From: Sharpea porci | GTDB lineage: Bacteria > Bacillota_I > Bacilli_A > Erysipelotrichales > Coprobacillaceae | Direction of reading: 5' to 3' | Length of the DNA: 34,163 bases | NCBI RefSeq assembly: GCF_009695655.1 | Contig: NZ_VUNM01000028.1 | Location: 1-34,163, forward strand | Part shown: positions 15,552-27,969 of the stretch, one piece after another | Numbering within the stretch: the stretch's first letter is position 1 | Layout of the letters: every line of letters starts with the position of its first letter | Program-made: the position numbers and the translations under genes | Notes under the pieces: model-generated | The model's database searches: none | Told to the model about the DNA's origin: nothing | The model's input: only the letters and a program-made list of their open reading frames with translations

Positions 15552-16040
15552 TTATTTCTTTACTTTAATTTTCTCGACCTTGAATCCAGCAAATGGATCT
15601 TCAAAGTCCATTGCCAGCTGATCTATTTCTTTGTCTTCCACCAGCTGGTTTCTTATGTACTCTTTTATTTTCTTCGTATTCTTTCCTACTATATCGACAT
15701 AATATCCTCTACACCAGAAGGATCTGTTCCGATACTTGAATCTTGCATTTGCCCATCTTTCAAAAATCATTTGAGAGCTTTTTCCTTTAAGATATCCCAT
15801 TATTCCAGAGACAGAATACTTTGGTGGTATCTCAATCAGCATATGCACATGATCAACACATACTTCTGCTTCAAGGATGTTGATGCCCTTCCATTCACAT
15901 AGCTGTCTCAAAATTTGCCCAATTTCAATCCTTCGAGCATCATAAAATGCCTTTCTTCTATATTTTGGTGCGAAAACCACATGATATTTACAATTCCACT
16001 TAGTGTGTGATAAACTGTGTAAGTCATCATCATATGACAT
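15552..16040 (-). CDS. tnpA: IS200/IS605 transposase TnpA (HUH tyrosine transposase)
   Basis: A 162-residue Y1 transposase with the N-terminal KYHVVFAPKYRRK block (18-30), the HUH metal site HVH (64-66) and the predicted nucleophile Tyr128 in EYIRNQ after the GYYVDIVG strand. It cuts and joins single-stranded DNA at the element's end hairpins. All key residues are intact, so it may be active. AGGAGG lies upstream of the ATG but can pair with a complementary segment in the leader. Confidence 0.93.
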   Translation of the reverse strand: MSYDDDLHSLSHTKWNCKYHVVFAPKYRRKAFYDARRIEIGQILRQLCEWKGINILEAEVCVDHVHMLIEIPPKYSVSGIMGYLKGKSSQMIFERWANARFKYRNRSFWCRGYYVDIVGKNTKKIKEYIRNQLVEDKEIDQLAMDFEDPFAGFKVEKIKVKK

Positions 16041-16241: not shown

Positions 16242-17648
16242 TTACATATGTAGAATATTCACCAACATAACCCAAGAAAGTCCATAGTATGTCACTACGC
16301 CCACTAAATCCGTTAGTGTCGTAATCAATGGTCCTGAGGCAACAGCTGGGTCAACACCTATCTGATTGAAAAAGATTGGTACGGCTGTACCTACAAAACT
16401 AGAAATCAACATAGCTAGAAGCAGTGATAGTCCGATACATGCTGAAATCGCAAAAGCTGTCATGACAGGCATATGACGCGCTGCCATAATATAGAGTCCA
16501 ATCACAACAAAAGATACGATACATAATATGAGCCCATTCGCAAAGCCCACACTCATCTCTTTACCAATCAAATGTAATTTTTCCCTAACAGTTAGATTTT
16601 TATCCATAAGTACACGAATTGTGACAGCTAGGGATTGTGTACCAACATTACCTGACATATCCAATATCATGGACTGGAAAGCCATGATGAGTGTTAGTTT
16701 CTGAACAACTGTTTCAAAAAGACCAACAACTGTAGAAACACCCATTCCCATAAACATCAGAAGCACAAGCCATGGCAAACGTTTCTTCACGCTGAGTAGA
16801 ATTGGTTCTTTAAGATCTTCTTCGGCAGACAAACCACCAAGTTTCGCATAATCTTCACCCATTTCATCATCGACAACTTCAACAACGTCCTGAGATGTAA
16901 TAACCCCAACAATGTGATTATCTTCTGATAAAACCGGGATGGACTCTTCAGAATAGTCTTTGATCTTTTCCAAGCAGTCTTCAATCTTTTCATCATCATA
17001 TACATATGGATAATTTGTTTCAACAATGTCCTCTAGCTTTGTTCCCTCACGAGCAATAATGAGATCCTTAAGATCAGCAGCACCATAAAAGATCCCTTCT
17101 TCATCAAGAATATAAATTACAGAAATATTATCATTTTCTGACGCTTGATCAATCAGTGAGCGCATTGCTTCTTTGATTGAGAGATTACGTTTAATAGCTA
17201 TATAATTTGTCCTCATACGACTCGCTATCGTATCTTCTTCATAAGCTGCCAGCATCCTAATAGCGTCCTGAATTTCAGGATCCATCATTTCCAGCCAAGC
17301 TTTCTTATATTGGGAGTCACTATTTTTTAAGATATCCGCTGCTGTAGCTGGTTCCATTTTTTCAAGCACGTTCGAAGCCTTCTTGGGATCCATTTCCTCA
17401 AGATAGATGTCCGCATCCTCATCCGCATATTCCATAATTTCCGCTAGATCTTCTATACGCATCACACGATAAAGAGTTAAACGCTCTTTCTTTTCTAGCT
17501 TAGGCAGGATTGCTGCCATATCATTCGCATGATAATTCTGTAGTTGATCACAGATCACACGTGGAGAATTGTTGGAACGAATAATGTCCAAAATTTCTTT
17601 TTCATATCCTAGCATTTCAACTGCTGTATTCTTTTCATCTCTCATCAT
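16242..17648 (-). CDS. mgtE: Magnesium transporter MgtE
   Basis: A 468-residue Mg2+ channel. The N-terminal helical MgtE domain (about 20-120, with acidic repeats such as YADEDADIYLEEMDP) is followed by a pair of CBS domains (about 130-260, ending SQDVVEVVDDEMGEDYAKL). About five membrane segments follow from residue 285, including the pore region ILDMSGNVGTQSLAV. In this family Mg2+ bound between the cytosolic domains closes the channel. I prefer the ATG at 17648, with AAGGAG seven bases upstream, over the ATG at 17678, where the only purine-rich stretch is too close. It is preceded by a long structured leader. Confidence 0.95.
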   Translation of the reverse strand: MMRDEKNTAVEMLGYEKEILDIIRSNNSPRVICDQLQNYHANDMAAILPKLEKKERLTLYRVMRIEDLAEIMEYADEDADIYLEEMDPKKASNVLEKMEPATAADILKNSDSQYKKAWLEMMDPEIQDAIRMLAAYEEDTIASRMRTNYIAIKRNLSIKEAMRSLIDQASENDNISVIYILDEEGIFYGAADLKDLIIAREGTKLEDIVETNYPYVYDDEKIEDCLEKIKDYSEESIPVLSEDNHIVGVITSQDVVEVVDDEMGEDYAKLGGLSAEEDLKEPILLSVKKRLPWLVLLMFMGMGVSTVVGLFETVVQKLTLIMAFQSMILDMSGNVGTQSLAVTIRVLMDKNLTVREKLHLIGKEMSVGFANGLILCIVSFVVIGLYIMAARHMPVMTAFAISACIGLSLLLAMLISSFVGTAVPIFFNQIGVDPAVASGPLITTLTDLVGVVTYYGLSWVMLVNILHM

Positions 17649-17780
17649 TTCTATTCTCCTTTCATCCTCTGAGTACATTTCACCTAAAACTGTTCTTTAT
17701 TCTTAAAATCATCAGGGACAATCAGTCTTATGTCACAATGAAATAGCTCACAGAAACAAAGAGAAAGAAATAATCACTTA

Positions 17781-17940
17781 GAAGAAACGCTATGTTTATA
17801 GTTTCTTACATGCAAAAAAAGGTGGAACAGAGCCCCTCTGTCCAACAGCTCTTCTTCCTCTGAGCTTCTGTACAATAATTTCTATTTGATATGGACTTCG
17901 TCCCTCACCATCACAATCAGCCATCTATTCCACCTCTTTT
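17781..17940 (-). ncRNA. Structured mgtE leader, possible metal- or ligand-responsive attenuator
   Basis: On the minus strand AGGTGGAA (17928-17935) pairs perfectly with TTCCACCT (17820-17827). The pairing extends through A-rich and T-rich flanks to about 13 bp. Inside are a hairpin around GGAC-GAA-GTCC (17893-17903) with outer TGAT/ATCA pairing, and AGCTC/GAGCT (17847-17866). The 3' side is an intrinsic terminator: GGACAGAG-GGG-CTCTGT-T-CC, then ACC and seven T. The TTCCA of the terminator's 3' arm is the same sequence used by the long stem, so the two folds exclude each other, which is riboswitch-like logic. A further AAGAAAC/GTTTCTT hairpin follows (17781-17807). I could not match it to the M-box (ykoK) Mg2+ riboswitch consensus. 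Confidence 0.6.
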
Positions 17941-17948
17941 CTTTGTCA

Positions 17949-17970
17949 TTAGAATATTTAAATATTCTAA
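17949..17970. promoter_or_regulatory. Perfect 22-bp palindrome in the mgtE leader
   Basis: The half-site TTAGAATATTT is repeated exactly as its reverse complement with no spacer. It lies just downstream of the predicted mgtE promoter and just before the structured leader, so it could be a repressor operator or a 5' UTR hairpin. Confidence 0.45.
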
Positions 17971-17982
17971 CCTTCTACCTTC

Positions 17983-18011
17983 ATTCTAACATCCACCCTT
18001 TTACTTGTAAA
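17983..18011 (-). promoter_or_regulatory. Predicted mgtE promoter
   Basis: On the minus strand -35 TTTACA (18006-18011) and -10 TAGAAT (17983-17988) have an exact 17-bp spacer. Transcription from here would give a leader of about 330 bases. The rest of 18012-18124 shows no gene. Confidence 0.55.
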
Positions 18012-18124: not shown

Positions 18125-18153
18125 AGAAAAGACCTCACGATGAGGTCTTTTCT
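18125..18153 (-). terminator. Terminator of the mal-type transporter operon
   Basis: A perfect 13-bp stem AGAAAAGACCTCA/TGAGGTCTTTTCT with a 3-base loop. It overlaps the 3' end of the second binding-protein gene on the minus strand. Confidence 0.75.
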
Positions 18154-26133: not shown

Positions 26134-27429
26134 CTAACTTAGATAGTAGTTAAGAGGATTGACCAACCCTGGTCTATCCTTTTTCTTAATGGCTAAAATC
26201 TTGGGACTAAGTAGAAAGTTGACAACATGACCATTGGCCTGTCTGTATAGACCTAGCCTAGTGTTTGCTACCGAGAATATTTGTTCATCTGTAAAGAGAA
26301 ATCCGAGTTTCTTATTCAGTTTCTGTAGATTAATATAAATCCTTTTTGGTTTCTTCCACTGTTTAAGAATAATAACTCTGATTTTATGGCGAAGCCATTG
26401 ACCAAAGGTGTCAATGAAGTATTTCATCACGCCTATTCGATAATAGTTAATCCATCCCATTACAATCTGATTGATTCTCTTGAATGTAACTGCAATTGGT
26501 CGTGCAATTCCTATCCTTCTTATGAGTTCTCTTCTACATTTGTCGTAGAGTTTCATCTTGCTCTGATTGGAAGGCTTGCATTTCCATTCACCATTCCTTT
26601 GGAGGTAGGTGAATCCTAGAAACTTGCTTTCGGGCGGTCTGACCACTTTGGTTTTAGTAGCACTGACTTTAAGAAATAGTTTTCTCTCTAGCCATGAAGT
26701 GACTGACTTCATTACTCTATTCGCGCTCATCTCGCTCTTAACGAAGATATTGCAGTCATCTGCATATCTTACAAAGCGTAGTCCTCTATATTCCAGTTCC
26801 TTGTCAAACTTATCTAAATAAACGTTAGAAAGGATTGGAGAAAGTGGACCTCCCTGAGGCACGCCGATTCTAGAAGGTTTTACTAAACCATCTTCCATAA
26901 TCCCTGCCTGCATGAATTTGCGAATAAGATGTAATGTTGTTGAGTCATTCACATTCTTTTCTCTAAGTATTGAGATTAACTTGTCATGATTTACAGTGTC
27001 AAAATATGCTTCAATATCTAAGTCTATAATCCAGTCATAGCCTTCATTAATGTATTCTAGAGTTTTCAGTACAGCCATCTGTGCACTTCTTCTTGGTCTG
27101 AATCCATAACTGAATTCACTGAATGAAGAATCTAGTTTCTTCATTAACACTTGTGCAACGGCCTGTTGAATAACTCTATCTACAACTGTAGGTATACCTA
27201 ATGGCCTTTTCTTGCCGTTAGGCTTTGGAATATAGACTCTCTTGACTGATTGGGGCTTATATTTCTTATTGAATATGGAGTATCTAATCTCTCTTCTATG
27301 CTTATAGAAATATTCATCAAGTTCCTCTACTGTCATCTTATCGACTCCAGATACACCTTTGTTTCTCTTGACCTGTAGGATTGCCCTATCAATATTTGTA
27401 TCGCTCAGTATTTCATCAATTAATCTCAT
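26134..27429 (-). CDS. ltrA: Group II intron reverse transcriptase/maturase
   Basis: A 431-residue intron-encoded protein. The reverse transcriptase fingers-palm spans about 60-260, with RPLGIPTVVDRVIQQA, FSYGFRPRRSAQMAV, GVPQGGPLSPILSNVYLD and the catalytic YADD (222-225). A maturase/thumb region (about 290-345, WINYYRIGVMKYF) follows. There is no HNH endonuclease domain, as expected for class IIC proteins, which prime from other DNA ends. AAAAGGAG lies upstream of the ATG. It splices the intron RNA and copies it into new sites. The frame is intact. Confidence 0.95.
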   Translation of the reverse strand: MRLIDEILSDTNIDRAILQVKRNKGVSGVDKMTVEELDEYFYKHRREIRYSIFNKKYKPQSVKRVYIPKPNGKKRPLGIPTVVDRVIQQAVAQVLMKKLDSSFSEFSYGFRPRRSAQMAVLKTLEYINEGYDWIIDLDIEAYFDTVNHDKLISILREKNVNDSTTLHLIRKFMQAGIMEDGLVKPSRIGVPQGGPLSPILSNVYLDKFDKELEYRGLRFVRYADDCNIFVKSEMSANRVMKSVTSWLERKLFLKVSATKTKVVRPPESKFLGFTYLQRNGEWKCKPSNQSKMKLYDKCRRELIRRIGIARPIAVTFKRINQIVMGWINYYRIGVMKYFIDTFGQWLRHKIRVIILKQWKKPKRIYINLQKLNKKLGFLFTDEQIFSVANTRLGLYRQANGHVVNFLLSPKILAIKKKDRPGLVNPLNYYLS

Positions 27430-27969
27430 GTCTGTGTTCTCCTTTTCATATCGTAAATTTATCTAGAACCGTTCCCTCTTCCTTCATCTCCACAGAATTA
27501 CGTTTTCCATTTATAAGATGTTTCCAATTTCGAACTATCTAGATATTGCTTTATGATGAGTGACATCATATAAACATTAGGTCCTTTGGTGCTGGTGAGA
27601 CACCTACTATGACCTCAGCTGACTCCTCACAGTGAGCTTTTTGTCGCACAACTTACCATCACTGATTTTAAAGATATTGGACTTCGTTGCCTGTGAGGCC
27701 TCCCGGGGTAATTCACTAATCCTGTTTCCTTCACAACGCCTTGATTTACTCTTTTGGTTTTACGTTCACCTTTAGGACTTCGGTTTGTCTAGCAACCTTA
27801 TCCACCATTTAGCCTTGTATCAAGTTTCTGTTCGTACGCTCAAAGGAATCGCTACACCACTTCCTTCACTCCTACCTTTATGGTATCGGCTTGTGGTTCA
27901 CTACACTTGGCGGTAACTACCTGTGATCGGACTATCTCCGACTGAATCAGTGCCATGCCCGGCACACTA

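Follow-up and report, generated by a model that had tools for sequence, protein, structure and literature searches.

A conserved leader open reading frame and a probable transcription attenuator upstream of the magnesium importer gene mgtE

The stretch of DNA analysed here (the window) is 34,163 nt of Sharpea porci contig NZ_VUNM01000028.1, and both mgtE and the leader features described below lie on its minus strand. The gene occupies positions 16242–17648 (TIGR00400, 269.8 bits against a cut-off of 232.75). Its start is more likely the ATG at 17648, which follows AGGAG, than the ATG at 17678; in the longer version, alignment with homologs begins only around residue 11. Upstream lies the region 17649–18011, whose left edge agrees with a predicted sigma-70-type promoter, TTTACA-17 nt-TAGAAT with an extended TG (17983–18011), recognized by its match to the consensus at 10 of 12 positions. 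Just 3' of this promoter is a perfect 22-bp palindrome, TTAGAATATTTAAATATTCTAA (17949–17970), which could be an operator or a 5' stem, and a strong symmetrical terminator, AAAAGACCTCATCGTGAGGTCTTTTC (18125–18153), ends the upstream sugar ABC transporter operon. An IS200-type transposase ORF (15552–16040) lies directly downstream of mgtE, and elsewhere in the window there is a group II intron (26134–27886) with a reverse transcriptase/maturase ORF at 26134–27429 and D1–D4 RNA matches at 27581–27886.

About 250 nt upstream of mgtE, an ATG at 17924 opens a leader ORF of 42 codons (17796–17924; peptide MADCDGEGRSPYQIEIIVQKLRGRRAVGQRGSVPPFFACKKL, beginning MADCDGEGRSPYQ) whose N-terminus reads MADCDGEGRS, with a CGA arginine codon at position 9 (17898–17900). 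Its Shine-Dalgarno sequence (SD) is AGGTGG (17930–17935), in which AGGTG is at least 90% conserved among 51 aligned leaders. The original prediction had described an 8-bp stem here, extendable to about 13 bp; its core, AGGTGGAA (17935–17928) with TTCCACCT (17827–17820), is an exact match, and the best duplex lengthens it to 15 pairs. In this stem, which we call P1, the 5' arm (17922–17936, from folding and covariation) consists of the SD, spacer and start codon of the leader ORF, the sequence separating the arms is the ORF itself, and the 3' arm (17819–17833, from duplex prediction) adjoins a T7 run (17814–17820). The same 3' arm is also the 3' strand of an intrinsic-terminator-like hairpin, GGACAGAG-GGG-CUCUGUUCC (17824–17843), that is followed by the T7 run, and in the window P1 and the hairpin are therefore mutually exclusive, as had been proposed. 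Hairpin and T7 run are covered by two overlapping terminator predictions, where 0.2 ± 0.5 would be expected. The 161 nt from 17800 to 17960 fold at −45 kcal/mol, whereas dinucleotide-shuffled versions give −31.5 ± 3.3 (z = −4.1, 0 of 200 as stable), and the duplex of the P1 arm with its downstream region reaches −29.6 kcal/mol (z = −6.0 against shuffles); the folding energy of the whole 381-nt leader is ordinary (z = −1.1).

A nucleotide blast among relatives of the host returned noise only, and the true relatives of the leader were reached through MgtE. A leader ORF with the SD AGGTG precedes 65 of 82 related mgtE genes, mostly from Lachnospiraceae. The peptide has the consensus MDSCDSHGRS / VANGDSHGSDGR, with an N-terminus of the form M/V-[DATE]-[NSG]-[CGS]-D-[SG]-[HCY]-G-R-S or a longer ...G-S-[DN]-G-R form, and it matches nothing in Pfam or NCBIfam. 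In all 89 non-redundant leaders frame 0 is open for at least 22 codons, compared with 37% and 6% for the other frames; codons 13–22, beyond the conserved part, are all sense in 87 of 87 leaders against 61% expected, and in the peptide alignment the variants differ in length ahead of the CGA codon by whole triplets. What lies upstream of the structural gene is a short ORF with an SD and a start codon that is under coding selection. An amino-acid attenuator of the trp, his or ilv type was considered and rejected: the peptide has no repeated residue and the gene is an ion importer.

Selection also appears to act on the mRNA. The first arginine codon is CGA in 73 of 77 leaders, against a background of 5.9% in mgtE and 10 of 133 later in the leader ORFs, and AGT for Ser-6 and GGG for Gly-8, the rarest codons for those residues in mgtE, are favoured as well. 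The leader is thus constrained in both its peptide and its mRNA sequence; conservation of the AGT, GGG and CGA codons is due in part to RNA pairing, and a role for the peptide is therefore putative. A conserved N-terminus with Asp, Cys and His could also belong to a small protein that acts in trans on MgtE or MgtA, with the stem merely tuning its translation. We think this highly improbable, since the C-terminal half of the peptide is variable and its length ranges freely from 22 to 65 codons, the identity of the rare codons is conserved, and the positions of stem and terminator follow the end of the ORF.

The original prediction had named covariation in relatives as its test, and P1 shows it. 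Across the 89 leaders, the SD/start arm pairs with its own downstream region at −21.9 kcal/mol compared with −17.0 kcal/mol when the arms are swapped (permutation z = −15.6), a test that controls for composition rather than for shared ancestry of the sequences. Thirty-two leaders recovered later with a sequence-only model behave alike in the arm-swap test. A count of ungapped pairs gives z = +11.3, with at least 12 of 14 pairs formed in 38 of 89 leaders against 13.7 after swapping. Covariation is strongest at −10 to +4, and the partner segment ends about 99 nt after the start, near the stop codon. The start codon keeps its U and G in every leader, and the P1 positions beside them compensate, with up to six pair types. 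A two-dimensional pairing map anchored on the P1 arm itself is circular for P1, and our case for the stem is built on the swap, position and ungapped tests. For the class A leaders described below, there was no support for a 2:3 hairpin conserved at one fixed position.

The interval between the arms had been taken for a small aptamer, and this part of the original prediction was not supported. A metabolite or ion riboswitch with its aptamer inside P1, the ORF being incidental, would account for the P1-closed domain and for some conservation at the nucleotide level (AGU, GGG, CGA), though this core is framed as codons. We consider it very unlikely: the SD and start codon are invariant within a covarying stem, the frame is open in 89 of 89 leaders with indels that keep it, an AGT to TCT serine change is seen among the leaders, and the local hairpins are not conserved as an aptamer, with no conserved internal helices. 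No Rfam family matched at threshold, the best sub-threshold matches being chance. For the M-box (RF00380), whose absence had been noted from the start, there was no covariance-model match above the gathering score in the leader, no sequence or structural likeness, and no match elsewhere in the window's genome. The conserved core is an ORF of the translated type whose ribosome-binding site is sequestered by the long stem, which makes the ribosome the most likely sensor. What stands of the original prediction is a structured mgtE leader of the transcription-attenuator type, undescribed in the libraries and papers searched.

Altogether these data lead us to propose, with a probability of about 80%, that the leader regulates a Mg2+ importer as a leader-peptide-coupled transcription attenuator. 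It combines alternative RNA structures, at least one of which overlaps the translation signals of the ORF, with an intrinsic terminator. P1 would pair the SD, the spacer and the start codon with a segment that lies some 100 nt further downstream, close to where the ORF ends. Since a ribosome at the leader start and P1 cannot coexist, translation of the leader would set the RNA fold and with it whether transcription terminates before mgtE. We envision that low Mg2+ alters the speed at which ribosomes begin on the leader or move through it, by analogy with MgtL and the his leader, and that the early Asp residues and the rare AGU, GGG and CGA codons are the putative sensing features.

Which genes carry the leader bears on the signal. 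A sequence-only model (R1; 62 positions spanning the SD and about 14 codons) was searched against 299 genomes of the family of Blautia luti (Lachnospiraceae), and its best 30 matches (E up to 6.6e-4) all precede a Mg2+ importer, 29 of them mgtE and one mgtA. Weaker matches are mixed: four more lie before mgtE or mgtA and the rest are ordinary gene starts. With this model the leader was also recovered from further Clostridia, as well as from a few genomes in the order to which the host belongs. In a direct search of mgtA genes, leader ORFs of the same layout were found before 12; these leaders have diverged further and the pattern that selected them was loose, so their support comes from the test of P1 pairing (z = −3.9, p = 2e-4, n = 11). 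Because the same device precedes two unrelated importers in many gut bacteria, with its start signal locked beside a terminator, translation of the leader probably decides importer production. No M-box was found in 11 of 11 mgtE-leader genomes tested, or at 20 related mgtE-leader loci. For mutual exclusion of M-box and leader within the family, rough counts give an odds ratio of 0.2 (p = 0.15), and we make no claim for it. What speaks directly for Mg2+ as the probable signal is that the leader is associated with two unrelated Mg2+ importers, that it occasionally stands in tandem with an M-box, and that the M-box is absent from those 11 genomes. As is proposed for the present leader, the M-box controls mgtE or mgtA by premature termination, and in some mgtA genes it sits directly upstream of the leader ORF: four Lachnospiraceae mgtA loci (L167, L168, L169 and L171) have an M-box with its own terminator, followed by the leader ORF with its SD-sequestering stem.

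The direction of the switch is where the leaders differ. The 89 leaders fall into class A (52, including the window) and class B/C (37). In 25 of the latter 37 a separate, strong terminator lies between +115 and +210, and in these codons 7–12 pair with the 5' strand of the terminator (own −18.6 versus −15.7, z = −5.0, n = 25), a pairing that suggests an antiterminator. Pairing of P1 would cross this antiterminator in a pseudoknot, and P1 is therefore expected to promote termination in class B/C. In class A, a U-rich tract lies right after P1 in 35% against 18% (p = 0.003), and in several short class A leaders P1 with its U-run is the only terminator-like element, with no other convincing terminator. 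Given the class B/C antiterminator that P1 would exclude and these short class A leaders, we lean towards P1 being the OFF state, with a ribosome held near the leader start turning mgtE ON. Against this, the U-run directly follows P1 in only about a third of leaders, and among the window's closest relatives (L024–L027) the local hairpin is kept in all four and P1 is weakened in two (L025 and L027), a pattern more in keeping with termination by the hairpin and antitermination by P1.

The opposite sign is accordingly worth spelling out for the window, where we regard it as quite possible, if somewhat short of an even bet. Here the hairpin at 17843–17824 with the T7 run would be the terminator and P1, with which it has a common 3' arm, the antiterminator. 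A ribosome that stalls on CGA would leave the SD free and block new ribosomes, P1 would form and mgtE would be ON. The covarying part of P1 stops near +4, immediately beyond the edge of a ribosome that pauses on codon 9, and in the Salmonella his leader CGA is a slow codon (PMC4046918). However, P1 adjoins the T run more closely than does the hairpin, which is set off by a 3-nt spacer, and the class B/C pseudoknot argues for termination by P1. The original view that expression is permitted when the stem is held may thus be right for the window, whereas other leaders of the family suggest the reverse. The sub-architectures disagree: the classes point to P1 as OFF, the window's nearest relatives to the opposite.

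Enterobacteria offer a parallel. In MgtL, MgtM and MgtP (mgtA, mgtCBR), translation of a leader ORF is coupled to transcription termination (PMC3641672; PMC11282234), and at low Mg2+ translation of MgtL is aborted on early acidic residues, which controls mgtA termination (PMC11282234). The present leader likewise places an ORF with early acidic residues before a Mg2+ importer. However, its peptide is unrelated and is without the EPDP/proline–acidic destabilising motif of those leaders (PMC11282234), intrinsic rather than Rho terminators are suggested, and the SD of the ORF forms one arm of the switch, with a CGA codon, in Firmicutes and mainly before mgtE. The ilvB and fthC uORF motifs (PMC11109978) resemble it in combining a uORF, an intrinsic terminator and alternative stems, but amino-acid or initiator-tRNA signals were proposed for them and they belong to other genes and taxa. 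The mgtE motif SRC-65-1 of Thioalkalivibrio (PMC11109978) is also a structured mgtE leader of unknown ligand; it is restricted to that genus, and the SD and AUG included in its model belong to mgtE rather than to a leader ORF, a distinction that we draw from its description. We found no account of an mgtE leader peptide in Clostridia in the open literature searched, subscription papers falling largely outside it, and an earlier description is possible.

The papers searched do not answer how Clostridia without an M-box control mgtE. The ribosome is a large Mg2+ sink, and its use by these bacteria as a Mg2+ gauge, in parallel to enterobacterial MgtL, is suggested by a leader peptide common to both mgtE and mgtA. 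More broadly, we tentatively put forward, at close to an even chance, a widespread ribosome-based Mg2+ sensor of Firmicutes, unrelated in sequence to MgtL, in which slow decoding of the AGU-GGG-CGA/early-Asp leader at low Mg2+ would decide the SD-sequestering stem, switch two unrelated importers, and replace or back up the M-box. With the hosts, codons and base pairs listed here, Mg2+ sensing by the ribosome becomes open to direct tests in gut bacteria.

Finally, the window's mgtE looks like a newcomer to its genome. Its product shares 81% identity with the MgtE proteins from Lachnospiraceae/Eubacterium genomes, its nearest homologs, and among 43 genomes of the host's family a close homolog occurs in its own genome and two others only. 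Since the gene is rare in its own family and its nearest homologs are in Lachnospiraceae, it was probably acquired horizontally from that group together with its leader. A phage or plasmid origin of the leader element was also considered and gave no match. The same genome carries a second mgtE (G000:C34:83277-84590), a copy that is also present in a congener (G001).
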